Positions 29,896 through 48,049 of a stretch of 64,000 bases of DNA are shown piece after piece. The notes below the pieces were generated by a model. The model searched no databases, was not told the DNA's origin, and worked only from the letters and a program-made list of their open reading frames with translations. This DNA comes from Mucilaginibacter sp. (GTDB lineage Bacteria > Bacteroidota > Bacteroidia > Sphingobacteriales > Sphingobacteriaceae). How positions within the stretch are numbered: position 1 is the first letter of the stretch; each line of letters begins with the position of its first letter. Both the position numbers and the translations under genes were made by a program. The stretch lies in NCBI GenBank assembly GCA_025352225.1, contig JANXTT010000028.1, forward strand, positions 1 to 64,000, written 5' to 3'.

Positions 29896-30780
29896 ATGAA
29901 ACTTCAATTTACCGGCCATGAATCATTTATTTGTAAGCAGCTTTGGCTTAAAAAGGGATATGATTTTGTAAAAAATAAAGGTGATTTTAATAATGAAGCC
30001 GCTGTAATCGAACTTGGTGTAGGGAAAAATATGGTGGCTTCCGTATCTTATTGGCTAAAAGCTTTTGGCATAACAGACCCTAACAATAACATATCAGAGT
30101 TTGGAAACTTTCTTTTCGACGATGAAAAAGGTGTAGACCCCTACATCGAAGACATTGCTACCATATGGCTACTGCACTATAATTTAAATAAGATAGAAAA
30201 GGCTTCGATCTATAGTTTGTTCTTTAATGAGTTTAGAAAGGGGCGCCCTGATTTTACCAAAAGTCAGCTTTTGAATTTTATAAAATTAAAATTAGAACAA
30301 TCCGATCAAAAAGGCGCAAACGAAAATACTGTATTGGGAGATATAAATGTTTTTATAAGAAATTATTTAAAACCAACCTCAAAAGAGACAAAAATTGACA
30401 TTGAGGAAGATTTCTCCAGTTTGATGATCGATCTTGATTTGATGCAATCATTTAAGTCCGAAGATTCAGAAGGAAAGATAACAGACTGGTATAAAGCGGA
30501 AAATAAAATACAAATTGACTTACCTGAAAACATCCTACTCTTCGCTTTATTGGACAATAACACATACGGTAATTCGATCAATTTTAGAGAAATACTCAAC
30601 GGATTACACTCACCCGGCACAATTTTCTTATTAAATGAAGTTGGGCTACTCGACAAACTAACAAAAATTGCAAATATTTACGATTCTATTACTTATTCAG
30701 AAACAGCTGGAGTGAGAGAAATACAGTTTAAATCTAAACCTAATAAATGGAAAATATTAAATGACTATTACACAAAATAA
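29896..30780 (+). CDS. sspB: DUF4007 protein, SspB-like phosphorothioation component
   Basis: The opening LQFTGHESFICKQLWLKKGYDFV and the following GVGKNMVASVSYWLKAFGI are the DUF4007 signature. In the SspBCD system, which places phosphorothioate on one DNA strand, SspB is a DUF4007 protein reported to nick DNA. The gene is followed by an ATPase (20-bp overlap) and a PAPS-reductase-like enzyme, the SspB-C-D order. No sspA (cysteine desulfurase) is in the window, so a chromosomal IscS-type enzyme would have to supply sulfur. The family call is firm, the Ssp assignment rests on context. Confidence 0.75.
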   Translation: MKLQFTGHESFICKQLWLKKGYDFVKNKGDFNNEAAVIELGVGKNMVASVSYWLKAFGITDPNNNISEFGNFLFDDEKGVDPYIEDIATIWLLHYNLNKIEKASIYSLFFNEFRKGRPDFTKSQLLNFIKLKLEQSDQKGANENTVLGDINVFIRNYLKPTSKETKIDIEEDFSSLMIDLDLMQSFKSEDSEGKITDWYKAENKIQIDLPENILLFALLDNNTYGNSINFREILNGLHSPGTIFLLNEVGLLDKLTKIANIYDSITYSETAGVREIQFKSKPNKWKILNDYYTK

Positions 30781-33700
30781 GTACTCGCCATCCATTAATA
30801 TATTAAGGGATAGTGATTTTTCATTTAATTATATCCCAACAACAAATGCTACTCATGCATTTAACTCAATATTTTCAAAGATACAAATTGGCGGAAAATC
30901 ACATAATATAATCGGAGCCTATGGAACGGGTAAGTCGTCATTTCTATTAGCGTTGATACAAACGTTAAAAGGAAAGGCATCACATTTTCCCTCCGAAAAA
31001 GAATTACCAAACGGCCATTTGAAATATGAGTTTATAACACTGATAGGTGAATATGGATCGTTGCAGTTAAAGTTCGCACAACTCTTTAACTTATCTGATG
31101 ATTATACTGTAACCGATATAATTACGGCCCTTGACAAAAAATATAGCCAATTAGACGCAAAACAAAAAGGGCTTTTTATAATTATTGATGAGTTTGGGAA
31201 GTTTTTGGAGTATGCAGCAAAAAATAATCCGGAGGCGGAATTATATTTTATTCAACAACTTGCTGAATGGATAAATGATGTAAATAAACACACACACTTC
31301 ATAACTGTTTTACATCAAAACTTCAATGCCTATTCAATTCAGTTAGATCATCTACAACGCCAGGAATGGGAGAAAATAAAAGGGCGCTTTATAGATATAC
31401 CTTTTAACGAACCAGTCGAACAGTTGTTGTACTTAGCATCTGAACGATTGGATCAAAAAAACACATCAAAACTAGTTGATAAGAATTTTGATAGGCTTTT
31501 TGACGTTATTAAAGAAGCAAAAGCTTTTCCTCTAAAGGATTATTTAGATAGAGATTTTGCAAAAAAGCTGTATCCTTTTGATATTTTATCTGCCTCAATT
31601 TTAACTCTTTCTTTGCAAAAGTATGGACAAAACGAAAGAAGCCTTTTCTCTTTTATTGAAACAAAAGAACATTTGCGGTTTGATGTTGTAAATCAACAAA
31701 ATTCAGCTAATATTCACATCCCAGCACTCTATAATTATTTACTACATGACTATTATACTTTTCTAACTTCAAAGTATAATCCTGATTATTCTCAATGGTC
31801 TGCGATAAGACGGGCATTAGAACGAATTGAAGGACTTTTTTCTGACGCAAGTCAGCAGAAAAATGCAGAAGATATCTTAAAACTAATAGGCTTATTAAAC
31901 ATATTTGCCACGCATTCCGCTAAATTGGAACCAAGATTTTATGCAAATTATGCTCGGTTGGCCTTGTCTATAAAATCACCAGAAGATATTATAAGGCACC
32001 TGGAAAAGAAAAAAATTATCAGATTCGTCAATCACAATTTAAGATATATTTTATTTGAAGGAACTGACCTGGATATTGAACTTGCTATAGACGACGCAGG
32101 AAGACTAGTTGAAAAAGTTACAAATGTTGTAAATCACCTAAATCAGTATTTTGAATTTCCTTTCATTTCGGCACGGTCAATTTATTACAAAACCGGAACA
32201 CCTAGATTTTTCCAATTCAAACTAACTGATAGGGCGACTTCTTTGATTCCAGAAGGGGAAGTTGACGGATTTATAAATCTCGTTTTTTCTGAAGAAGATA
32301 ACGCCGATGGTGATGTTAAAGAATTTTCAGACTCCTGTAGTGAAGCGATCTTGTTTGGGTATTATAAAAATACTGGTATCATTAGAAATTTATTATTTGA
32401 TATTCAAAAAATTCAAAAGGTAATTGAAAACAATCAAGACGATAAGGCTGCTATTGTTTTATTGAATGAGGAATTCCAAATTAAGATAAAGCTCCTTAAC
32501 CATTATGTTTTAGATAATATTTATACAGATAAAGGAAATGTAGTTTGGTATTTCCAAGGCCGCAAAATCAGGCTTGAAAATCGAAAAAAATTAAATAGGG
32601 AATTATCGAAAATTTGTGCAAAAATTTATGATAACACTCCTATTTACAAGAATGAACTTATAAATAAAACAAAGGTTTCAGGGCAAATTGCCCTGGCCCG
32701 AAATAAGTTAAATAGAAGACTTTTAAGTGATCTCAACTTACCAAATTTGGGGTTTAATGATAACGAGTTTCCACCCGAAAAATCGACCTATTTATCGCTT
32801 TTAAAACATACAGGGATACATCAAATTACTAATGGTATAGGTGCATTAACTCAACCTACCCATGAATCATTCAGGTTTTTGTGGGAAGCGGGAATAAACT
32901 TCTTAAATAGCTCTAAAAATAAGGAGAGAAATTTGGAAGACTTTATTCAGACAATTTCCTCAAAACCGTTTAAGCTTAAACGAGGATTAATCGATTACTG
33001 GGTTCCTGTTTTTTTATTGGCTAACAAAGATGATTTCGCACTATATACTAACGGAGTATATGTTCCAGAGATTGAAAGCGACATTCTTGAATTGATCAAT
33101 AAAAAGCCAAGTCATTTTTTTCTAAAAGCTTTCGATGTTGAGGGTGTTAAATTAAAACTTTTTAATCATTACAGGATTTTTCTTGACCAATCGGAAAACC
33201 ATAAACCTAACAACAAACTTTTTATACAGACTATTAAGCCATTTTTGGTGTTCTATCGAGATTTGACCGAATACGCTCAGAAAACAACCCGTCTAAGTAA
33301 AAAAACGATAGCATTACGTCAAGTAATCGCAAATGCTAAAGATCCCGAAAAAACATTTTTCGAAGATTTTCCCGCTGCAATGGGATATACTATTAGTGAA
33401 TTACAAAAAGAGCCGTTAAAAGCCGAGACATTTATCCAAAGCCTACAAACTTCCGTACGCGAAATAAGAAGTAGCTACGATATGTTAGTTGATAGATTTG
33501 AAACTTATCTCGTTAGGGATGTTATTGGTAGTGGTTCATCGTTTCCCGAATATAGGGAGGATATTAGAGAGAGATTTAAAAACATTAAGGTTCATTTATT
33601 GCTTGCCCGGCAAAAGCCTTTTTATAGTCGCTTACAGTCTGAGTTGGATGACAGAACCGCTTGGCTAAATTCCATCGCACAATCTTGCATCGGAAAACCA

Positions 33701-33997
33701 TTAAACGCAGTTAATGATGAAGAAGAAATACTTTTATTTGAAAGACTAAAAGATATTATTTACGAGTTAGATAATCTTTCGGAAATCAACCAATTGGATG
33801 TCGATCAAAACAATGAGGATTTAATAAAGATAGAAATTACATCATTAATGCAAGGACTTAACAAAGGTCTTCTTAGAATTCCAAAAGAAAAATCCAAAGA
33901 AGTAGTGGCTATCCAGGATAAAATCAGATTGTTATTGGGAACGGATAAAAAGATCAATCTAACTATATTAGCTAAATTATTACAAGAGTATATTTAA
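30761..33997 (+). CDS. sspC: Large P-loop ATPase, SspC-like
   Basis: Walker A GAYGTGKSSFLLAL is at about residue 52 and Walker B FIIIDEFGKFLEYA at about 138. The rest of the 1078 residues is mostly helical, with TETHFITVLHQNF-like sensor region (NKHTHFITVLHQNF) near 185. The C-terminal 300 residues may form a coiled region. In the Ssp system, SspC is the ATPase that works with SspB and SspD. BrxC of BREX is another large ATPase of this kind, but no PglZ gene accompanies it here. It overlaps sspB by 20 bp and abuts sspD. Confidence 0.7.
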   Translation: MTITQNKYSPSINILRDSDFSFNYIPTTNATHAFNSIFSKIQIGGKSHNIIGAYGTGKSSFLLALIQTLKGKASHFPSEKELPNGHLKYEFITLIGEYGSLQLKFAQLFNLSDDYTVTDIITALDKKYSQLDAKQKGLFIIIDEFGKFLEYAAKNNPEAELYFIQQLAEWINDVNKHTHFITVLHQNFNAYSIQLDHLQRQEWEKIKGRFIDIPFNEPVEQLLYLASERLDQKNTSKLVDKNFDRLFDVIKEAKAFPLKDYLDRDFAKKLYPFDILSASILTLSLQKYGQNERSLFSFIETKEHLRFDVVNQQNSANIHIPALYNYLLHDYYTFLTSKYNPDYSQWSAIRRALERIEGLFSDASQQKNAEDILKLIGLLNIFATHSAKLEPRFYANYARLALSIKSPEDIIRHLEKKKIIRFVNHNLRYILFEGTDLDIELAIDDAGRLVEKVTNVVNHLNQYFEFPFISARSIYYKTGTPRFFQFKLTDRATSLIPEGEVDGFINLVFSEEDNADGDVKEFSDSCSEAILFGYYKNTGIIRNLLFDIQKIQKVIENNQDDKAAIVLLNEEFQIKIKLLNHYVLDNIYTDKGNVVWYFQGRKIRLENRKKLNRELSKICAKIYDNTPIYKNELINKTKVSGQIALARNKLNRRLLSDLNLPNLGFNDNEFPPEKSTYLSLLKHTGIHQITNGIGALTQPTHESFRFLWEAGINFLNSSKNKERNLEDFIQTISSKPFKLKRGLIDYWVPVFLLANKDDFALYTNGVYVPEIESDILELINKKPSHFFLKAFDVEGVKLKLFNHYRIFLDQSENHKPNNKLFIQTIKPFLVFYRDLTEYAQKTTRLSKKTIALRQVIANAKDPEKTFFEDFPAAMGYTISELQKEPLKAETFIQSLQTSVREIRSSYDMLVDRFETYLVRDVIGSGSSFPEYREDIRERFKNIKVHLLLARQKPFYSRLQSELDDRTAWLNSIAQSCIGKPLNAVNDEEEILLFERLKDIIYELDNLSEINQLDVDQNNEDLIKIEITSLMQGLNKGLLRIPKEKSKEVVAIQDKIRLLLGTDKKINLTILAKLLQEYI

Positions 33998-35104
33998 ATG
34001 GATCAACAAGTAAGGCATGTATTAGGTATTTCAGGGGGGAAAGATAGCGCTGCCTTGGCAATCTATTTGCGGAAAAATTGCCCAGAGCTTGATATCGAAT
34101 ATTACTTCTGTGATACCGGCAAAGAACTCGACGAAACTTACACTCTCATACGTAATCTTGAAACTTACCTCGGACGAAAAGTTACAGTCTTGAAGGCGGC
34201 AGGTAAGAGTACGCAAGATCCATTTGATCATTTTTATAATGTATTTGGCAATTATTTGCCGTCCTCTAACATCCGATGGTGTACCAAATACTTAAAATTA
34301 CAGCCATTTGAAGATTTTGTGGGAAACGGCCCTGTTGTGTCGTATGTCGGAATCCGTGGCGATGAAGATCGCGAAGGCTACATCTCCAAAAAAACAAATA
34401 TCCAGTCTATATTTCCATTCAGGAAGAATATATGGAGTGAGGATGTTATAAATAAGGTATTAAAAGACGAAAATATAAGCCGTCTTATACAGCTTAATGA
34501 AAAGATATTTGGTGCTGAAACTTTGAATAGGCGGGTTGAAATTCTTAACCTGCCACTCTCGGCAAAGTTTCCAATATCTCAAAAATTAAATCAATTATTA
34601 GACCAGGGCATAAAGGAATTTAATCAGATAGTGTTTGAGTTTTTAAAGACAACGGATTATCCATTATCCCTTGAAACTGATTATTCATTAGTTTCTAATG
34701 AAGACAATCTTGTAAGAGATGACATTTTCAAATTGCTGAGAGAAAGCGGAGTTGGTGTGCCTGAGTATTACGAGAAAATTCAATTTGAAGTAGATGGGAT
34801 GATTGGAGAATATGCTCGTAGCAGGTCTGGCTGTTATTTTTGTTTCTTCCAACAAAAAATTGAATGGGTATGGCTGTTGGAGCAGCATCCGGATTTATTT
34901 AAAATGGCTATGACGTATGAAAATGAGAAAGAGGGTTTTACTTGGAATCAAAAAGAAAGCTTAAAGGAGTTGATGCAACCCGAACGAGTTCTTACGATCA
35001 AAAGAGATTTTTTAAATAAAAACAAAACCAAATCAAAATCTCCATATCTATTAGACATTTTGGACGATTCTGAATCAGAAGGTTGCGCAGCCTGTTTTAT
35101 ATAA
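33998..35104 (+). CDS. sspD: PAPS reductase/ATP-pyrophosphatase, SspD (DndC)-like
   Basis: This enzyme would activate the DNA backbone for sulfur insertion. The PP-loop motif SGGKDS is at residues 11-16. CDTGKELDETY follows at about 40. RWCTKYLKLQPFEDFV and YVGIRGDEDREGY, conserved in DndC-like proteins, lie at about 100-130. Near the C-terminus SGCYFCFFQQKIEW and a final GCAACFI give cysteines that could bind an iron-sulfur cluster. It starts immediately after the ATPase stop, and its stop overlaps the next start (TAATG). DndC and SspD cannot be told apart from motifs; the DUF4007 neighbour favours SspD. Confidence 0.82.
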   Translation: MDQQVRHVLGISGGKDSAALAIYLRKNCPELDIEYYFCDTGKELDETYTLIRNLETYLGRKVTVLKAAGKSTQDPFDHFYNVFGNYLPSSNIRWCTKYLKLQPFEDFVGNGPVVSYVGIRGDEDREGYISKKTNIQSIFPFRKNIWSEDVINKVLKDENISRLIQLNEKIFGAETLNRRVEILNLPLSAKFPISQKLNQLLDQGIKEFNQIVFEFLKTTDYPLSLETDYSLVSNEDNLVRDDIFKLLRESGVGVPEYYEKIQFEVDGMIGEYARSRSGCYFCFFQQKIEWVWLLEQHPDLFKMAMTYENEKEGFTWNQKESLKELMQPERVLTIKRDFLNKNKTKSKSPYLLDILDDSESEGCAACFI

Positions 35105-36231
35105 TGAGTAATGAGCAATTTGTAATCACTATCGATGGTTTTCGATTTATAGAAAATTTGCAAACCACAGCACGACAATTGATTGTGTGTACGGAGATTG
35201 CAAAACAACTTAATAACAGACAACTGCCTAAACGCATCTTAGAAGAAATGCTTATAAAGTGGAGTCTAAATGAGGAAGCAATTAACCAAGAATATAAGGA
35301 AAGTAAGGGTAAAATAACAAAAGACGGTGGGAAGACTGCTGCGTTAAGATATTATTTTTCACTTGCTGAATCGTTGGGTTTGATTAAGGGATTTAACAAC
35401 GTATTCATTGATACAAATATTTCTTATACGCTGTTATATTTCATAGAGGAACACAAGGAACACTATGTCGCTAAAAAATTATGTGAAAATATTTTTTATT
35501 TATACCAACTTCTCAATAACGACGCAGATGGAATTTTGCTTTGTGTAGATCAAATCGCAGTTGATAATGCAAGAAGTCAAAGGGAACTTCAATCAAAATT
35601 TAAAGAAACCCTTAATTATCGGTTAGTTACTAAAGGAGACCTCGCCTCACCACATTTAAAGAATAGCATAGTTAATAAGTTTAGGGCAGTAAATTATGTT
35701 TGGAAAAAGCCAGAGGTTTATGCTGAACACATAATTGCTCCGCGTTATGAGTGGCTGTCGACATTAGGGTTGGTGAAAATTAATAGAGGCTCAAAGTTTA
35801 CATTCTATTCGCTTACAGAAAAAGGTGATAAATTTAGGAACGCATGCCCTAAAATAGGTGCTGATATTTTGATCACTGATATTTCTGAAAAATGGCTATC
35901 ATCTTCCTTTTTCGATATCGCAAGTTTGTTGTATTGTGAACAAGAAGTAGTCAAGTTTGGACTCTTACCAAATAACACGAAAAACCAGCAACTTGGGGCT
36001 TCTTTAGAAAGAGCATCAAAATTTGTAAAGTCCAGTATATCTTATAGATTACCACTAATTAACAGCTATTTATTTATTTGCATGGATTTATTAGTCAATC
36101 AAAATATTATAATTAATTTTAATGATATTTATGAAAGTCTCAATCCCGCTTTCACTTATAATTTGAAAACCTATAAACCTAAAATAAGTGGCCGCCTGAA
36201 CGAAAGCTATATCACAATCACACACATTTAG
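35104..36231 (+). CDS. Unknown protein with possible winged helix, ssp operon gene 4
   Basis: I start it at MSNEQFVITIDGF, where ATG overlaps the sspD stop codon by one base. The 375 residues have no signal peptide and match no family I can name. One region, RYEWLSTLGLVKINRGSKFTFYSLTEKG (about residues 220-248), has the shape of a winged helix. An N-terminal helical part precedes it. Tight coupling to sspD suggests a subunit or regulator of the modification system. It could be a specificity or reader protein, which is conjecture. Confidence 0.65.
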   Translation: MSNEQFVITIDGFRFIENLQTTARQLIVCTEIAKQLNNRQLPKRILEEMLIKWSLNEEAINQEYKESKGKITKDGGKTAALRYYFSLAESLGLIKGFNNVFIDTNISYTLLYFIEEHKEHYVAKKLCENIFYLYQLLNNDADGILLCVDQIAVDNARSQRELQSKFKETLNYRLVTKGDLASPHLKNSIVNKFRAVNYVWKKPEVYAEHIIAPRYEWLSTLGLVKINRGSKFTFYSLTEKGDKFRNACPKIGADILITDISEKWLSSSFFDIASLLYCEQEVVKFGLLPNNTKNQQLGASLERASKFVKSSISYRLPLINSYLFICMDLLVNQNIIINFNDIYESLNPAFTYNLKTYKPKISGRLNESYITITHI

Positions 36232-36852
36232 ATGAAACTTAATTGTATTATAGATACTTGCAGTTGTATAATTCTCAACAACGCAGAATTTAAACAATCG
36301 TCTTTACTTTCGTACTTTAATAATCGTTCTCATCTATCTTATTGCAAAGAAGTTAAGCTCGAGTTAAATGATCATAGAGTCAAAGGTTTGCCAAAATTTT
36401 TATACGATAAAAAGAGAAAACTGAAACCATTTAGGTATTCAATTGATGAATATGAAATGCGAATGGTTGAAAAATTACTATCCTCCAGGACACACGGTAA
36501 CAACAAAGGAGAAATTGATAATTTTGCTGTATCAATTGATCAGGTTCATCATTTAAAAGTGAACCCTATTATCTATATAACTGATGACAAAAAGGCCCTG
36601 AGAGGGATACTTTCGGATTATTTTCCAGCATTTCCTGCTTTAAGTGTCTGGACTTCCCTTGATGTTGTTCTATACTTATATGCAGAAAATATCATACCTT
36701 CAAAAGATATTGCTATGGAGATGATTCAGTCAATAGTATCCTTTTCTGCACCGGCACCGGCAGATCGTAGTCAAAAAACTACCGACGAGTTGATAAATAC
36801 ACGAAAGAATTATACGAAGAGGATTGAAGTTATTAGTAAATTAATAAAGTAA
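36232..36852 (+). CDS. PIN-domain-like nuclease, ssp operon gene 5
   Basis: The start KLNCIIDTCSCIIL gives the first acidic residue after a hydrophobic strand, as in PIN domains. Further acidic residues follow in KLELNDHR, GEIDNFAVSI and YITDDKKAL, in the order expected for a PIN active site. At 206 residues it is somewhat longer than VapC toxins. There is no small antitoxin gene before it; the start codon directly follows the stop of the previous gene. It probably works with the ATPase gene 7 bp downstream. An RNase or DNase effector role is inferred. Confidence 0.65.
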   Translation: MKLNCIIDTCSCIILNNAEFKQSSLLSYFNNRSHLSYCKEVKLELNDHRVKGLPKFLYDKKRKLKPFRYSIDEYEMRMVEKLLSSRTHGNNKGEIDNFAVSIDQVHHLKVNPIIYITDDKKALRGILSDYFPAFPALSVWTSLDVVLYLYAENIIPSKDIAMEMIQSIVSFSAPAPADRSQKTTDELINTRKNYTKRIEVISKLIK

Positions 36853-36859
36853 CATCGCA

Positions 36860-37951
36860 ATGAACTTAGAACAGATTAATTTATCATACAACCCGTTTAA
36901 AGATGTATCGCCCAATATAGATGATACACATATGGTGTGGGCCAGTATGGGCGAAGTAAAGGCAAAACTTGAACGGAGTTATAAAGATTGCATTAATAAC
37001 AACTCCAAACAGATCATCCTTAATTGGGGACAATATGGTGGTGGTAAGACATTTAGTGCTTATTATTTTTCCAAACAAATGAGCGATGTCGATAATATAA
37101 AACATATCTACTTGAGATGTCCAAAAGATGGAGCAAAAGCTACTGATGAGTTTTTTATTTCAATTATCGATGCACTGGGTTTCGAAGAGCTCAATCAACA
37201 TATTCATAAATTAATCACCGAAGTAGGGGAAGATGCTCTAATTGCATATTTAACACCACGAGCCACAAGGGAATTTGCCAAAGCGATATGTTTGATTGGT
37301 TCGCAAGAGCCCGATACACGCGAAATGATGAACAGATTCCTGTTTAGCGGTATTTCAAAAGCAGAATTAAAGAAACTGGGCTTGGCGAAAGATATTTATA
37401 CAGATAGTGACTCAGGAAGATTTCTTTCGGGAATATTATCTTGTTACACCGGGACAAATGCAATCAATAATGGCCGGGTTGTAATATGGTTAGACGAAAT
37501 GGAAGATCTGATTTATTATGCTCCCAAAAATTACAAAGCATTCTCTCAAATACTTAGAGATTTATTCGACAATATCTCTGATCGTTTTTTGTTTTTCTTA
37601 AATTTTACTTTGGCTGAAGGTGAGGAATCTGTAATTGAGCTTATGTTAGGCGCAGCACTTTGGTCGAGAGTCACTAAGAAAATTAGGTATAAGGAATTTA
37701 GTGAGGCGAACGCATTGGAATATGCTAACGAGCTCTTAGCAGTTGCTCGGATAAATAAAAACATTGAAAGTCCGCTTAGTCCAGAAATTTTAAATATCTT
37801 AATTAGTAATATACCCATAAACATATTGACACCCAGGGAAATAAATAAACACATTAACAGCTTGTTAAGCTATTCAATGGAGCATGAGCTATCAACTATA
37901 ACGCTGGAAGTCTTTAATAACTGGTCTAAGGAGTATTCCGAAGATTTTTAG
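36860..37951 (+). CDS. AAA/ORC-like ATPase, ssp operon gene 6
   Basis: Walker A GQYGGGKTF lies at about residue 56 and Walker B VVIWLDEMEDLIYY at about 207. The N-terminal LSYNPFKDVSPN is the NPF-type opening common to ExeA/ORC-like ATPases. The C-terminal 80 residues look like a winged-helix or lid domain (ILTPREINKHINSLL). It follows the PIN-like gene by 7 bp. A sensor or loader that controls the nuclease is the simplest idea, but nothing shows it directly. Confidence 0.75.
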   Translation: MNLEQINLSYNPFKDVSPNIDDTHMVWASMGEVKAKLERSYKDCINNNSKQIILNWGQYGGGKTFSAYYFSKQMSDVDNIKHIYLRCPKDGAKATDEFFISIIDALGFEELNQHIHKLITEVGEDALIAYLTPRATREFAKAICLIGSQEPDTREMMNRFLFSGISKAELKKLGLAKDIYTDSDSGRFLSGILSCYTGTNAINNGRVVIWLDEMEDLIYYAPKNYKAFSQILRDLFDNISDRFLFFLNFTLAEGEESVIELMLGAALWSRVTKKIRYKEFSEANALEYANELLAVARINKNIESPLSPEILNILISNIPINILTPREINKHINSLLSYSMEHELSTITLEVFNNWSKEYSEDF

Positions 37952-38017
37952 ATTTTCCGATATCCTGTAACAAAAGTTAATGTTTAATAATTCTAAAAGC
38001 ATAATCTAAAACTATTA

Positions 38018-39079
38018 ATGGAGACAACTATAGTAGAGTGGAATATAAATGAGCTCCATAAAAAGCTGGATGTAATTCAAAATCAGCCCAAGTATCAAAG
38101 AGGCGCTGTTTGGACATTATTAAAAAGACAAATGCTCATTGATTCCATGCTAAGGGGGATTGATATACCGAAGTTATACCTACGGAAAATCGACTTTGGT
38201 CTATTCAAATATGAAGTAGCAGATGGACAACAACGCATTCGCGCAATTAAGGACTATTTAAATGGCGTATTTTCTCTCTCGACAAAAACAGTCAATGGAC
38301 TTGATTTAAATAAAATCGGATCATTTCTAGTTGGCGATAAAAAATTTAGTGAATTAAATGATAAATTAAAGGAACGGTTTTTGTCTTATAAACTGACGGT
38401 CGCCGTTGTAAATGATGCCTCACCTTCTGAAATTAGAACTTTATTTGGACGTCTACAGATGGGCGACCCTCTTAATCCGGCGGAGAAAAGAAACGCTATA
38501 ATAAGTACGTTGGGTAAAGAAATTGATAATATTGCCGTAAACCATGACTTCTTTACCAGTTGTAAAATTGCCCCGGAACGTTTTAAAAGACAGGATTTTG
38601 TAACTCACATTTTCGCGTTGGTGTTATACAAAAACAGGTACGATCTTAAAGCCCCTTTGTTACAGTCAATGTACCTTGATAAGACAGTTGACTTTTCAGG
38701 AAACCTGATACCAAAGGTTGTAAATGTTCTTACGTTTATGAAGGCCATCGATCACCCCTCGTACAAAAGGATTGTAAATAAATGGAGTTTTGTTGATATT
38801 TTCAGGGTGATCTTTGACTGGTATGATAAAATAGATAATATAGATTCAACAGAGTTTGCAATTGCCTTTCGCGACTTCGAAAAAAGACGATTGGAATATT
38901 CTTCAGAGCCTGAATTGCTGATTAGAAAAAAGAAAGTGAATCAAGAGGATGAATATCTTTATAATTATATCATGGCATTTAGGGCTAATGGCGGTAACCC
39001 GAGTAATTTGAACAAACGAAATGAGGCTTTAAAAAACATTTTTAAGGATTCTATTAAATTTAAAGAGCATGCCATTTGA
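38018..39079 (+). CDS. DUF262 (DGQQR) protein without HNH domain, ssp operon gene 7
   Basis: DUF262 domains are ParB/Srx-like and use the DGQQR motif. Here QPKYQRGAVW is at about residue 24 and ADGQQRIRAI at about 68. In SspE a DUF262 domain senses phosphorothioate and controls a C-terminal HNH nuclease. This protein of 353 residues ends without the HNH part (no IEHIxPQ motif). The gene downstream overlaps it by 11 bp and encodes a SIR2 protein. That suggests a reader whose output is carried by a separate effector. The reader role is inferred. Confidence 0.82.
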   Translation: METTIVEWNINELHKKLDVIQNQPKYQRGAVWTLLKRQMLIDSMLRGIDIPKLYLRKIDFGLFKYEVADGQQRIRAIKDYLNGVFSLSTKTVNGLDLNKIGSFLVGDKKFSELNDKLKERFLSYKLTVAVVNDASPSEIRTLFGRLQMGDPLNPAEKRNAIISTLGKEIDNIAVNHDFFTSCKIAPERFKRQDFVTHIFALVLYKNRYDLKAPLLQSMYLDKTVDFSGNLIPKVVNVLTFMKAIDHPSYKRIVNKWSFVDIFRVIFDWYDKIDNIDSTEFAIAFRDFEKRRLEYSSEPELLIRKKKVNQEDEYLYNYIMAFRANGGNPSNLNKRNEALKNIFKDSIKFKEHAI

Positions 39080-39932
39080 TCCAAAAAGAATCCCGACCGA
39101 CTTGATAGATAACCTGAAGAAAGGTAACTCTGCACTATACGTGGGCTCTGGTCTTTCAATTAAGGCCGGATTGCCGAGTTGGGCTACTTTAATGACTGAA
39201 TTAATTGAAGAAGTCAAAAAGCTACCATATGACATGACAGCGCAGATTAGCGATTATGAGATAATGAAGAAAGACCCTAATAAGTTTTTGTCATTGGCTC
39301 AAGATTTAAAGTCTGCCCTCGGAGATAAGATGTATAATGAGTACTTAGAAAAACGTTTTGGAAATGACTCATTATCGCCAACAGAAGATCATAAGACAAT
39401 TACAAACATTCCGTTTGCTTTCATAATTACTACAAATTATGATCAGCTTATTGAAAAAGCATTTGCTTTTAATAAGCATCATTATCCTGCCGTTTTGACC
39501 CATATAAGCAGCAGAGACATCGCCTATAAGTTATGGAATAACCAATTTTTCATTTTGAAAGCCCACGGTGACGTCGTCATTAGGAAGGACGAGATCATAA
39601 TGACTGAGCGTGATTATCGAGAAATACTCTTTAAAAGCCAGGGATTTCAGACGGTATTGCAAGTGATGTTTTCAACAAAGTCAATCGTTTTTGTAGGAAC
39701 ATCCTTTACCGACCCTGATTTTATTTTATTGATGCGATATTTACACACAGCTTATGACGGAGGCGGCCCAACTCACTACATCTTAATAAATGAAAATGAA
39801 GTTTTGGACGTCGAAGCCAAGCGCAATATGGAGGATTTTAATTTGCACTCTATAAAATACAATCCCGAAAATGATCGTGAGCAAGTCGGACAATTTCTAA
39901 CTGCATTAAAAGACAGTGTTTCTGTAGTTTAA
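39069..39932 (+). CDS. SIR2 family protein, probable NAD-dependent effector
   Basis: SIR2 domains in phage defence often cleave NAD. The N-terminal nucleotide-binding segment is SALYVGSGLSIKAGLPSWATLM at about residue 22. FIITTNYDQLIEKAF follows at about 118, and the catalytic histidine lies in ILKAHGDV at about 165. SIVFVGTSFTDPDFILLMRYL completes the fold. The 287 residues are essentially only the SIR2 domain. It is the last gene of the operon and overlaps the DUF262 gene. NADase activity is expected from related Thoeris/Avs-type proteins but not proven by sequence. Confidence 0.85.
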   Translation: MPFDPKRIPTDLIDNLKKGNSALYVGSGLSIKAGLPSWATLMTELIEEVKKLPYDMTAQISDYEIMKKDPNKFLSLAQDLKSALGDKMYNEYLEKRFGNDSLSPTEDHKTITNIPFAFIITTNYDQLIEKAFAFNKHHYPAVLTHISSRDIAYKLWNNQFFILKAHGDVVIRKDEIIMTERDYREILFKSQGFQTVLQVMFSTKSIVFVGTSFTDPDFILLMRYLHTAYDGGGPTHYILINENEVLDVEAKRNMEDFNLHSIKYNPENDREQVGQFLTALKDSVSVV

Positions 39933-39935
39933 TAG

Positions 39936-39986
39936 AAATCCATAATGTGGCTTTATATACTAAGCTTAGATTTATTATATGGATTT
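39936..39986. terminator. Weak inverted repeat between convergent operons
   Basis: AAATCCATA (39936-39944) pairs with TATGGATTT (39978-39986) across a 33-base loop, directly after the SIR2 stop and before the end of the convergent DUF262 gene. The long loop makes it a poor classical terminator. Listed because it is the only structure in this convergent gap. Confidence 0.3.
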
Positions 39987-40072
39987 TAAACCTATCCGGA
40001 ACATATAAAATCCAGTAAAATTGAATTAATCTGCGAGACTACGATATTTGCGGGCAATTCAAAAAAACTCGC

Positions 40073-42385
40073 TTAAACGCTAAAGCTTTCGAAGGCCGAC
40101 AACGCCAAATCGACATTTGCCATAATTGAAAGCCCAGGAGTATCTTCAAAAAAAAGGACTGCAGTAGTGAGTAAAATATCGTCCTTATCTCTCGTCTCTA
40201 CTGTCCATTTCTGCTGTTCGTACTTAACTACCAGTGAATTTCCCGGGCCCGTATTTATATAACAAGCCCGGTGATGGTATTTAGCCCGCTCTCCGAAATT
40301 GGCAATAAATACCATTAGCTGAATTTCACAGTAATCGGCGCTCATAATCGTCTTCGACAATAGAATGATTTTCTGATGATTCTGGAACAATATCTTTTTT
40401 TGCTGACAATAAGCCATTATTTGGGGTAGGCGAATAAAAGCGTACCGCCAGTCATTGGTGTCCGTAAAGGCATTGATTAATTCGTGAAAGTAAGCTTGTA
40501 TCGTTTGGAACCTGTAGTCTGTGAGACTGACGTACAAATCCTTGATAAATTCAATTAAAACCAACTTCTGATCGAGGTGAGCAAATAACCGGCGCCATTC
40601 ACCATTATCGCTGACAAAGCTAAACTTGTGGATGTATTCCTGCCGGTAAGTGCCACCGCTCTCCTGCAATGCATAGTCATCGAAAGTTAGCATGGCACGT
40701 CGTAGGATGTCGGATCTAAAATGGTCTGCGATTAATCGTTGGAGCAGGCTGTAATAACCGCCAAGTTCAATAATTTGATCGTGACTGATTACTTCAAGAT
40801 CCAACGCGACACAATCGAATAAAATCGTTATGTTACCTTCTAAAAAACCGGATATTTTGGCATCATTGGTAATTTTCCAGATAAATTCTTCCAATTCTGC
40901 CCTGCTGTCTTCCCGTCCTTGTCGGCTCAATAAACGTAGTTTAGCCATTTCGCCAGGCGTTAGTATATTACGAAACTTTCTATCAAACAAAGGGTCTAAA
41001 AAGCCTGTAATGTCAGTTAGGTTCAAATCACACAGTATCTTGACCATTTTTAGCAGATCAATTGTTGCAGTATCCGGCGCTCTGCCTACAGTACTAGCAA
41101 AATAAGTGATGTTTTTAAGAAACATCCCCATCCGAATTACATCCCGCTGCTTTAGCGCCACATCTTCCCAATTGCTATGTGCAATAAAGTAGAGAAGGGG
41201 GCATATAATAACGTAGTCTATGGTCTGTAGATGATTTGCAAGGTATGATTTTCGTAGAAAAGGTTTGAATGCGCCATAAACTTCTTTGTCATAAAGATAG
41301 GACAACGTATTTGCAAGTTTCTGTAAATAAACGAAGGAGAAAGCGGGACTATTTAGCTGGTATTTTTCGAGCAATTCAGTCTGGAAAATCACTCTGCCCT
41401 GTATTCGGTGAATAAATTCTTCCGGCCTTTTATGATCGCCATTGAAAATTTGTAAAATAGTTGCCCATTTTAGAAATTCCTGGAAACCAACATCTGCGTT
41501 TTCACGTTGCAGCCGGATTTTTTCAGTCCAATAAAAGCGATGCTGCCAGAAAAAATTCTGCCAATTCTCCCATTCGTGGCCAGCCGCCTTTTTCTTATCC
41601 GTTTCACTCTCTTTTAAGACAATCTCGGATTTGATCCGTTCCTGAAAGGAAAGATCTTCGCCACGGCTGTTCATATAAAGGTATAGCTGCTCACCCTGTT
41701 CACTAAGACTGGTATCAAAATAATTGACCTCAACGAATTCTTCTATAAAATACGTGAACGGCTGTAGTTCATTATCGGGCATTTCGGCAATTCGATGCTG
41801 TATATGCTTATAGTTAGCGATCAGATTACAAATTGTAGTATCCTCATCATAATTTTTATAATATGCATTGTTCTGCTTAATATCCCGGCTGTCAGCTACA
41901 AGTTCATTTTGCACAAAAGCGACCATAAAATCGTGAGAAGCTTCCCGCACTTTATAATCTATCCGGAGCTGGTTGTTTTTGAAATAAACGGACCTGAACT
42001 CTTCCCCACGACCTGTTTTTTTATAAAGCGCCAATAACAGCAGGTATAAAGAGGTTAGCCGTTGTTGTCCGTCAATAAGAAAGAATTTGCCGGCATATTC
42101 GAGGTCGTGATAAGCATAAATAAAACCGATTTTAACATGATATACAAGTCGTTCATATTCCTTTTTTAAGTAACTGACAAGGTTTGGCTCTAAAATAAGT
42201 TCTTGGTTAACATACGCACCAAATTCCAGACGTTCCTTTTTAGAAAAGTGTTCCCTGATGGCACTAAGTAAACGCTCAACGTTTACTTGTTGCCATACAT
42301 AATCCCGTTGGATCTCAGGGATAATAACCTGATCGATCTCATTATGTGTCAATAATTCCTTTAAGCTGTAACGTCCTGTTTTCAT
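40073..42385 (-). CDS. Large DUF262 protein, partner of the HNH protein
   Basis: I start it at MKTGRYSLKELLTHNEI, where ATG overlaps the upstream stop (ATGA). The DUF262 part shows IQRDYVWQ at about residue 25 and FLIDGQQRLTSLYLL at about 105; SRGEDLSFQERIKSE follows near 240. The remaining 500 residues have no HNH motif that I can see, and the function of that part is unknown. It is translationally coupled to a DUF262-HNH protein, like split GmrS/GmrD or a reader pair. It points towards the ssp operon, end to end with the SIR2 gene. Confidence 0.82.
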   Translation of the reverse strand: MKTGRYSLKELLTHNEIDQVIIPEIQRDYVWQQVNVERLLSAIREHFSKKERLEFGAYVNQELILEPNLVSYLKKEYERLVYHVKIGFIYAYHDLEYAGKFFLIDGQQRLTSLYLLLLALYKKTGRGEEFRSVYFKNNQLRIDYKVREASHDFMVAFVQNELVADSRDIKQNNAYYKNYDEDTTICNLIANYKHIQHRIAEMPDNELQPFTYFIEEFVEVNYFDTSLSEQGEQLYLYMNSRGEDLSFQERIKSEIVLKESETDKKKAAGHEWENWQNFFWQHRFYWTEKIRLQRENADVGFQEFLKWATILQIFNGDHKRPEEFIHRIQGRVIFQTELLEKYQLNSPAFSFVYLQKLANTLSYLYDKEVYGAFKPFLRKSYLANHLQTIDYVIICPLLYFIAHSNWEDVALKQRDVIRMGMFLKNITYFASTVGRAPDTATIDLLKMVKILCDLNLTDITGFLDPLFDRKFRNILTPGEMAKLRLLSRQGREDSRAELEEFIWKITNDAKISGFLEGNITILFDCVALDLEVISHDQIIELGGYYSLLQRLIADHFRSDILRRAMLTFDDYALQESGGTYRQEYIHKFSFVSDNGEWRRLFAHLDQKLVLIEFIKDLYVSLTDYRFQTIQAYFHELINAFTDTNDWRYAFIRLPQIMAYCQQKKILFQNHQKIILLSKTIMSADYCEIQLMVFIANFGERAKYHHRACYINTGPGNSLVVKYEQQKWTVETRDKDDILLTTAVLFFEDTPGLSIMANVDLALSAFESFSV

Positions 42386-44238
42386 GCTAATATTTCCTCC
42401 AGGCGCACTACAAGCCAAGACCTGTGTACATCGACATCGTTCCGGCTCCAGTTAACGAACGATGCGTCAAAATCAATTGCTTTGCCCGCACCATCCTTCA
42501 GTTCCTTCGTTTCCAGCATTTTCGAAAAAACGTCTAATGTATGTTTTGGAACGAAACTTCCGGTATTGATCTTACGAAGCAGTATCTTTCTTTTAGTGTT
42601 GAAAAAACCGTTGCTTAATGCGCTATTAACTTTCCCCGACAACAACGCAAGATTACCAAGATTATTGACATCCCCTATTTCAGCGAGTAGCCAGTCAACA
42701 TAAGTACTGTCAATTTCAGTAGCGGTACTGATATTCTCCTTTAATTGATTAAGTTTTTTAGTAAGTTCTTCGTCTGCATCGGCCTCTTTCTTTTTTATTT
42801 TTTTCAACAACCATTGTTTATCATCCTGTACGTTAAGCTTGCCAGATTTAGGATTTTGCGGAAAAATATGTTCAATGCTCCAGTTCTCTGTAGCGTAAGC
42901 ATAAAAATCAAACCGGTAAAGCTTATTGCTATTAAATTCCTCGCTCTTGGGAAATACACTTAGCGCCAGCAAGATACGTGTGACGGCCAATTTATCTCCA
43001 ATATAGCTCAAGTCCTTTATTTGTTTAGCGGGCCGAAGCTGGCTGTATAGATAATCCTTCAGGTGCTTAATCGCAGCTCTTGTATCTTTTTTGAGTAATA
43101 GATCTTTAATATTGGCAGTATGCTTTTTACTCGTTTCCTGCATGTAGCCAAGCAAGTTATAAATCACCGGATCATCATGCCAGCTCTTTAACCGTTTGTA
43201 AATATGTTTGATTTCATTCAAACACTCAAGCGCGTCCTGGGCGGATATGACCTGGTCATGAAATTGATTAAAAAGATCATAATCCCGCAACACCTCGTCC
43301 TTTTTTAGCCCTGATCTAAAGGTTGTTATTACTTTATTAGACGCACGGTCAGTTTTTTCTACTAAGCGCAAAAGGTTTTCCATTCCATCGGCATCCGGTC
43401 CAAAAAAATAACGACTGATGTCTGGACGTGTAATCCAGGCATTCATTTCGTCCCAGGTACGGCCCATGATAGCCCTTTCATCAATAATCTCTCGGAACCT
43501 TTTGTACTCAACACCGCTACTTATCATTCTAGAGGCTTTAGTTAATAACAATCCCTTCACCAGATAGGCGTTAGTCAAAGGAACCTTATTGCCATTTAAA
43601 TTGGAAAATATTTCCTCGGCCGAGACCATTTCGTCTTCTTTATTGAGAATGATTTTAACATTGTAATTGATATACTCACAGAAGCTTTTTAAGTTATTGG
43701 CTTCTTCCACGAGGGTGAAAAAACCTTTGAAACAACGGAATGCACCGAGCATATAATACTGATCTTGTGCTTCCATTTTCTCAGGGATGCTTATCGTTTC
43801 ATCCAGTTCAGTTATAGTATGGAAAATGTTATCTTCATATCTCGCATAACTGACCAGTGGCCCAGAATTATTCGCTGCTAGGTTCTCACGTTCAAAGAAT
43901 TTTTCAAGCGCATAATATAAAAGGCTTAACGAGGTAAGGCGCTGTTGCCCGTCTATCACCTCAAATTTTGGCTCACCTTTTATCAGGGCTTTTTTTACTG
44001 TAATGTACTGTAGAAAATATTCTTGTTGCGAGCGTGTACTGGAAGCACTTTTTAAATAGGCATCATAAAGATCTGTGAGTAAAACGGGTACGGCATCATT
44101 TATGGTGCTTGACTTCCACTTGTAAGTGCGCTGGTAAGGGCCAATATAATACCCATTGACTTCGTTGTCCTTCAAACACCCATCGGCGGAATTACTGAAG
44201 AGTTCTTTGATCGAAAAAATAAATCTGTTTAATGACAT
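42382..44238 (-). CDS. DUF262-DUF1524 (HNH) nuclease, SspE/GmrSD-like
   Basis: The N-terminal DUF262 domain shows GPYQRTYKWK at about residue 33 and EVIDGQQRLTSL at about 95. The C-terminal DUF1524 domain has the HNH-type motif WSIEHIFPQNP at about residue 450 and NLGNLALLSGKVNSALSN at about 548. This order is the one of SspE, which senses phosphorothioate and nicks DNA, and of GmrSD, which attacks modified phage DNA. Location 3 kb from the phosphorothioation-like operon makes an SspE-like role attractive. It is 618 residues, somewhat short for a fused GmrSD. It is translated with the next DUF262 gene. Confidence 0.85.
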   Translation of the reverse strand: MSLNRFIFSIKELFSNSADGCLKDNEVNGYYIGPYQRTYKWKSSTINDAVPVLLTDLYDAYLKSASSTRSQQEYFLQYITVKKALIKGEPKFEVIDGQQRLTSLSLLYYALEKFFERENLAANNSGPLVSYARYEDNIFHTITELDETISIPEKMEAQDQYYMLGAFRCFKGFFTLVEEANNLKSFCEYINYNVKIILNKEDEMVSAEEIFSNLNGNKVPLTNAYLVKGLLLTKASRMISSGVEYKRFREIIDERAIMGRTWDEMNAWITRPDISRYFFGPDADGMENLLRLVEKTDRASNKVITTFRSGLKKDEVLRDYDLFNQFHDQVISAQDALECLNEIKHIYKRLKSWHDDPVIYNLLGYMQETSKKHTANIKDLLLKKDTRAAIKHLKDYLYSQLRPAKQIKDLSYIGDKLAVTRILLALSVFPKSEEFNSNKLYRFDFYAYATENWSIEHIFPQNPKSGKLNVQDDKQWLLKKIKKKEADADEELTKKLNQLKENISTATEIDSTYVDWLLAEIGDVNNLGNLALLSGKVNSALSNGFFNTKRKILLRKINTGSFVPKHTLDVFSKMLETKELKDGAGKAIDFDASFVNWSRNDVDVHRSWLVVRLEEILA

Positions 44239-47950: not shown

Positions 47951-47975
47951 CGAGTGGGCTTTAAAACCCGTTTTG

Positions 47976-48049
47976 TGCGCCCACCTGGGCTCGAACCAGG
48001 GACCAAAAGATTATGAGTCTTCTACTCTAACCAACTGAGCTATAGGCGC
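47976..48049 (-). tRNA. tRNA-Met (anticodon CAT)
   Basis: The minus strand folds as a full tRNA of 74 nt: acceptor GCGCCTA/TGGGCGC with discriminator A, D-arm GCTCAGTTGGTTAGAG, anticodon loop CTCATAA and T-arm GGTTCGAGCCC. CCA is not encoded. The CAT anticodon allows elongator Met or the lysidine-modified Ile tRNA; the C1-paired acceptor argues against the initiator. Its 3' end faces the integrase, so it is the probable integration target. Confidence 0.93.

Follow-up and report, generated by a model that had tools for sequence, protein, structure and literature searches.

What role might a DUF262 protein play that carries the NTPase motif of a DNA-modification reader, lacks a nuclease domain and is immediately followed by a SIR2 gene? 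The 64,000-nt stretch of Mucilaginibacter sp. DNA analyzed here (contig JANXTT010000028.1; hereafter the window) raises this question at the end of an Ssp operon, where the first-pass annotation had read the two genes as a reader and a separate NAD-consuming effector, an abortive-infection counterpart of SspE. The best reading of the evidence set out below is that the pair represents a new effector class for defence based on DNA phosphorothioation (PT). Specifically, we think it rather probable that the pair is the effector module of the SspBCD system, with the DUF262 NTPase reading PT status and gating the NADase.

The pair closes a run of eight genes on one strand (29896-39932) in which the largest gap is 66 bp, and the gene after SIR2 lies on the opposite strand (Table 1). 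SspB, SspC and SspD are intact, full length and contiguous (29896-35104), and they share one operon with the pair. To judge by gene content, they make up a complete PT module, and PT on the host DNA is predicted. The GC content of the Ssp operon is 34%, against 37-40% in its surroundings. It lies within a defence island (22381-47669) that also contains an MmeI-type restriction-modification system, a helicase, a T5orf172 protein, an AbiE pair, two further DUF262 proteins (one of them GmrSD) and a tyrosine integrase near a tRNA-Met gene (47975-48049); a search of the window for an exact att repeat matching the end of tRNA-Met was negative.

Table 1. Features of the Ssp operon and of the DUF262-SIR2 pair, in window coordinates
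Feature	Coordinates	Strand	Evidence
SspB (DUF4007), first gene of the operon	29896..30780	+	PADLOC SspB 1.8e-102; Pfam DUF4007 8.9e-77
SspC ATPase, 1078 aa, full length	30761..33997	+	PADLOC SspC E=0, 1305 bits
SspD, PAPS-reductase-like sulfurtransferase	33998..35104	+	PADLOC SspD 5e-93; Pfam PAPS_reduct 8.1e-8
Trio: 382 aa unknown, 206 aa PIN-like (by eye), 363 aa AAA ATPase	35083..37951	+	
DUF262 reader/NTPase, 353 aa, without nuclease domain	38018..39079	+	Pfam GmrSD_N/DUF262 5.8e-15
P24-x-Y26-Q27 of DUF262	38087..38098	+	motif-aligns with SspE PT-sensing cavity
DGQQR NTPase motif, DUF262 residues 69-73	38222..38236	+	invariant, 28/28 aligned members
DUF262/SIR2 reading-frame overlap, 11 bp	39069..39079	+	sequence
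SIR2 NADase (predicted), 287 aa, single domain	39069..39932	+	Pfam SIR2_2 (PF13289) 1.3e-26
SIR2 N123, catalytic Asn in TTNYD	39435..39437	+	invariant 24/24
SIR2 H166, catalytic His in KAHGD	39564..39566	+	invariant 24/24

The domain content of both proteins is as the first-pass annotation had described it. In the 353-aa DUF262 protein, which has the DGQQR site, Pfam detected GmrSD_N but neither HNH nor GmrSD_C. The SIR2 protein, described as almost only a catalytic domain with no sensor of its own, matched SIR2_2 only, showed no second domain above the Pfam cut-off along its 287 aa and was modelled as one compact domain (pLDDT 92). Its residues G26, G28, S30, N123, H166 and D215 are invariant (24/24), and the model aligns along its full length with KomC, a stand-alone NADase of 264 aa, as well as with the SIR2 portions of ThsA and DSR2; ThsA, KomC and DSR2 are also its closest solved relatives. 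The protein is a defence-type SIR2 with all NADase residues, for which NAD+ hydrolysis is predicted. A separate partner that binds nucleotides can drive a stand-alone SIR2 of the KomC kind, as KomC itself shows. The claim that an 11-bp overlap couples the two genes stands only in part: the overlap is real and tight spacing is kept, as nearly all intact pairs are separated by -11 to +12 nt and most show a gap of 1-5 nt or an overlap of 1-4 nt, but the exact overlap is not conserved, and we reject it as a conserved feature in favor of the spacing alone.

For the reader, we observed that P24, Q27 and R28 are invariant across 24 pair members, as is D69-G-Q-Q-R73, and that position 26 is Tyr in 15 of them and Trp in 9. 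By motif alignment, position 26 is the counterpart of the PT-sensing Tyr in SspE and DndI: in EcSspE the PT-sensing cavity comprises P61, Y63 and Q64 (PMC13251355), and in DndI the aromatic Y25 stands at the PT-sensing position and discriminates self from non-self DNA (PMC11662687). Residue 26 is Tyr in most Bacteroidota and Trp in Alphaproteobacteria and Binatota, and this split at the expected PT-contact position may mean that a different PT context is tracked. The P-x-Y-Q-R Tyr motif is widespread across DUF262 proteins generally, so its presence in the reader is no proof of PT sensing. The DUF262 model (pLDDT 89, pTM 0.63) returned only weak Foldseek matches, all of ParB or Srx fold at a TM of about 0.2 and with SspE not among them, and nearness to SspE therefore cannot be claimed from structure; a PDB sequence search with DUF262 profiles found nothing.

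Searching plasmids by tblastn with the DUF262 query and with the SIR2 query led to the same three top records. On the Hymenobacter plasmid NZ_CP110137, SspB, SspC, SspD, DUF262 and SIR2 form a minimal five-gene operon with nothing between them, and in Sinorhizobium americanum the pair adjoins SspFGH, and SspD and SspC are encoded on the other strand. A three-row DUF262 alignment taken from the plasmid records, free of SIR2 and Ssp sequence, served as query for a scan of one genome per species (84,980 species), from which 80 loci were kept and annotated with profiles. The same genome scan found no relatives when a single DUF262 sequence was the query. Viral contigs scanned with the DUF262 query likewise yielded no relatives, and phage records contained only distant DUF262 proteins. 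The 80 loci split cleanly into 32 of high similarity, which we refer to as the clade, and 48 of lower similarity. A SIR2 gene was directly adjacent in 24 of the 32 clade members, whereas it was found next to none of the 48 more distant DUF262 genes. Recurrence on this scale in an unbiased scan shows that the arrangement is not due to chance, and the first-pass annotation's reading thereby survives one of the refuting outcomes it had named, a lack of recurring co-occurrence. Ssp genes were present within the flank (~10 kb) of 28/32 clade members and of 0/48 others (Fisher p 1.2e-17), so the clustering of defence genes in islands does not by itself explain the link. Four clade members lack SspBCD in the flank: L059 and L063 have SspFGH beside the pair, L061 is a 5.4-kb contig and L071 is an orphan DUF262. 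At L026, the same Sinorhizobium locus, SspC and SspD lie just beyond the flank. Hosts of the pair are Bacteroidota, in most of which it directly follows SspD, Alphaproteobacteria and one Binatota bacterium; basal relatives without SIR2 occur in Poribacteria, Chloroflexota and one Mycobacterium. The linkage of the pair to Ssp is near exclusive and positional.

As an independent sample we took 401 genomes from the order to which the window belongs; SspD is present in 34 of them. Searching the sample with the DUF262 profile yielded eight matches of more than 300 bits, the next best scoring 166 bits, and all eight strong carriers were among the 34 SspD-positive genomes (hypergeometric p 1.2e-9); six of these readers adjoin a SIR2 gene and two stand alone. 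Counting the window, the pair follows 6 of the 32 complete SspBCD loci in the order sample. At L148 and L150 the same reader type follows SspD without SIR2, the only neighbour being a gene for an ATPase of ~810 aa on the opposite strand. Pairwise distances among DUF262 and SIR2 proteins correlate closely (r=0.91, 24 pairs), as do those of SspC and SspD (0.90), and correlations between the pair and SspC or SspD are clearly lower (0.49-0.64). DUF262 and SIR2 move together as a unit, which at times passes from one Ssp module to another.

In a tree of 78 DUF262 proteins inferred by maximum likelihood, every reader of this type falls into a 31-row clade (support 100/99) that is entirely Ssp-linked. 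The SIR2-linked readers are nested within it as a clade of 26 rows (100/100), 25 of which have SIR2 and one of which has switched its neighbour. The other Ssp-linked branch (Poribacteria, Anaerolineae) combines the same DUF262 with a C-terminal HNH; the basal Ssp-linked members L066, L070, L072 and L073 carry this domain, as does the outgroup without Ssp. Given the C-terminal HNH of the nearest outgroups, the reader lineage has probably lost its nuclease and acquired SIR2 in its place. The simplest history, based on domain hits and tree position rather than on formal reconstruction, would be that a DUF262-HNH protein tied to SspBCD lost ~60 HNH residues and gained SIR2 there. We also observed that L066, L072 and L073 are poribacterial SspBCD operons in which the DUF262-HNH gene is followed by a DndB-like gene, so that Ssp and Dnd parts are mixed.

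Other modules also sit on SspBCD. Another DUF262 lineage is joined by a protein kinase (Ser/Thr-type, with HRD and DLG intact) directly or soon after SspD at L028 (9516-11676), L048 (7816-9967), L129, L134, L144 and L149, and at L048 the DUF262-kinase and DUF262-SIR2 pairs stand in tandem within one operon. These genes appear to constitute a second two-gene reader-effector pair on SspBCD, which would have arisen independently of the DUF262-SIR2 pair. Genes of the trio type (365-550 aa unknown, PIN-like, 360-371 aa AAA ATPase) follow SspD without the pair at L029, L139 and L140. None of the PADLOC, Pfam or NCBIfam families matched the trio above cut-off. It is a module of its own, linked to SspBCD and distinct from the pair, and is probably a further unnamed Ssp effector. 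We considered SspFGH as an identity for the trio in the window and rejected it: the PADLOC models for SspF, SspG and SspH, which give 200-790 bits on true members, did not match, and the AAA gene encodes 363 aa. In the window and in several relatives the pair is accompanied in its operon or locus by a second module (trio, SspFGH or kinase pair), an arrangement consistent with suicide as a backup to restriction; at many loci the pair is the only recognized effector.

Further observations concern the surroundings of SspBCD. The protein of ~810 aa mentioned above, which matches HATPase_c_3 (GHKL-type ATPase) weakly and is absent from PADLOC, is often encoded beside SspBCD, mostly in convergent orientation (L025, L049, L050, L052, L053, L055, L056, L067, L068, L070, L073, L028 and others). 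A candidate swapped effector at L067, an Mrr nuclease, was downgraded, since at L136 and L145 Mrr homologues are neighbours of the oppositely oriented ~810-aa ATPase gene, so that the nuclease may belong with that gene. A small two-gene unit (about 225-235 aa and 127-140 aa) follows SspD in several Bacteroidota (L126, L133, L137, L034 and L128).

In the mechanism that we propose, SspBCD together with a cysteine desulfurase from elsewhere would place PT marks on host DNA. DUF262, as a ParB/Srx-like NTPase, would read the PT status of DNA through the P-x-[Y/W]-Q cavity and the DGQQR site, and its NTP-driven state would gate the partner SIR2. PT on self DNA would hold the module off, whereas incoming DNA free of PT, or phage DNA replicated without the mark, would release the SIR2, which would then hydrolyse NAD+ and stop the infection. 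Such a scheme presupposes PT binding by the reader, contact between DUF262 and SIR2, NADase activity in vivo and a gate that opens in this direction. Given the rest of the scheme, the direction itself is put forward tentatively, at slightly under an even chance; we regard it as the likeliest because a constitutive host mark cannot trigger a suicide enzyme, and SspFGH (PMC8092258) and DndI (PMC11662687) treat PT as a safe signal by the same logic as the proposed gate.

The gate could also work the other way: PT-bearing DNA would license the DUF262 NTPase, and the SIR2 would fire only upon a further signal of infection. This would be in keeping with SspE, which needs PT for its activity and is harmless without it (PMC8092258, PMC13251355), and the pair was never clearly found without Ssp genes, as expected of a module that is inert without PT. 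Nevertheless, we consider it unlikely: a constitutive mark that licenses an NADase requires a second trigger, and PT is the safe signal for both DndI (PMC11662687) and SspFGH (PMC8092258), the latter often encoded beside the pair in Alphaproteobacteria.

Besides the generality of the P-x-Y-Q-R motif, the Trp at position 26 in some members and the weak structural matches, the observations that run against the reading of the pair as a PT effector are that the reader is nearer to Menshen NsnA than to SspE by sequence, that the Ssp loci L148 and L150 have the reader but not SIR2, and that defence genes cluster in islands. Another possibility is an independent system, in which a Menshen-like reader would recognize another DNA feature or a phage product and SspBCD would be a neighbour by clustering. 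The closest PADLOC family of the reader is indeed NsnA of Menshen, and the Dazbog DUF262 is thought to read methylation (PMC10952713). We judge such independence improbable, as the positional linkage is near exclusive and absent from the 48 other DUF262 loci, no strong reader match fell outside the 34 SspD-positive genomes and the operon has neither NsnB nor NsnC. Still more remote is a DUF262 that restrains the SIR2 as a DndB-like regulator or antitoxin without reading PT: DndB is a related PT-system protein, the Pfam DndB model weakly matches some clade members (L066, 5.4e-5) and DUF262 precedes a toxic enzyme in a toxin-antitoxin-like gene order, but the NTPase motif and the aromatic pocket are invariant, and the presence of an HNH nuclease within related readers themselves implies that the reader senses and activates.

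Returning to the DUF262-SIR2 pair as an SspBCD effector, a broader reading is that SspBCD is a general PT platform into which two-gene modules plug, each with a nuclease-free DUF262 NTPase, its nuclease either lost or never present, that reads PT and fires a SIR2 or a kinase. We see this as evenly balanced between right and wrong. If true, it would describe abortive infection gated by an epigenetic mark with swappable effectors and would for the first time connect DNA phosphorothioation with NAD+ depletion; the PT-based defences that we found in the literature all end in DNA damage. An NADase or kinase driven by a PT reader would extend PT beyond restriction to a checkpoint for cell suicide, and the pair would show a DNA-modification reader swapping its fused nuclease for a separate enzyme. 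The NADase also offers a simple toxicity readout with and without SspBCD, by which PT as ‘self, stay off’ and PT as ‘licence to act’ become testable.

In the open-licence literature we found no prior description of DUF262 with SIR2, of SspBCD with an NADase or of SspBCD with DUF262, and we rejected the identification of the pair as Menshen, Thoeris, SspFGH or DndI on the defining genes of each. Menshen (NsnABC) is similar in that NsnA is a DUF262 protein without DUF1524; the reader matches PADLOC NsnA (PDLC03877) at 9.3e-32 over residues 12-346 of 353. In contrast to the pair, Menshen has the partners NsnB and NsnC (a predicted OLD nuclease), neither of which PADLOC matched in the ten genes at 29896-44238, and it has no SspBCD and no SIR2. 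In Kongming (KomBC) and Thoeris (ThsAB) a SIR2 NADase is likewise set off by a separate partner or signal, but their triggers are nucleotides (dITP and gcADPR), without DUF262 or DNA modification; the 287-aa SIR2 lacks the C-terminal SLOG sensor of Thoeris, and no ThsB TIR partner is present in the operon. Backup suicide effectors on PT systems, including S/T/Y kinases, have been proposed for Dnd neighbourhoods with variable suicide effectors (PMC10853773), a study that covers the Dnd core and whose text mentions neither SIR2 nor DUF262. IscS-DndBCDE-DndI relies on a single PT-sensing NTPase that tells self from non-self DNA through an aromatic residue, but DndI is a nickase that goes with double-stranded PT, and there is no SIR2. 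SspABCD-SspFGH places a multi-gene effector on the same SspBCD module and co-occurs with the pair in Sinorhizobium and an unclassified proteobacterium, but it damages unmodified DNA and has no genes in common with the pair. The system originally suggested as a counterpart, SspABCD-SspE, shares the SspBCD module, a DUF262 reader encoded with it, the DGQQR motif and the aromatic residue of the P-x-Y-Q cavity. By sequence the reader is not a truncated SspE, with profile models of 749-793 positions for SspE against 353 aa for the reader, and the PADLOC SspE profiles gave no match to it at E<=0.01; together with the near full-length NsnA match, this means that the reader is at most a functional analogue of SspE, not an SspE that lacks its nuclease. 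SspE nicks DNA with its own C-terminal nuclease, whereas the reader in the window lacks such a domain and stands directly ahead of a SIR2 gene. What holds of the original proposal is a split reader and effector that are tightly coupled, widely recurring and tied to SspBCD, with an HNH loss indicated by the outgroups.
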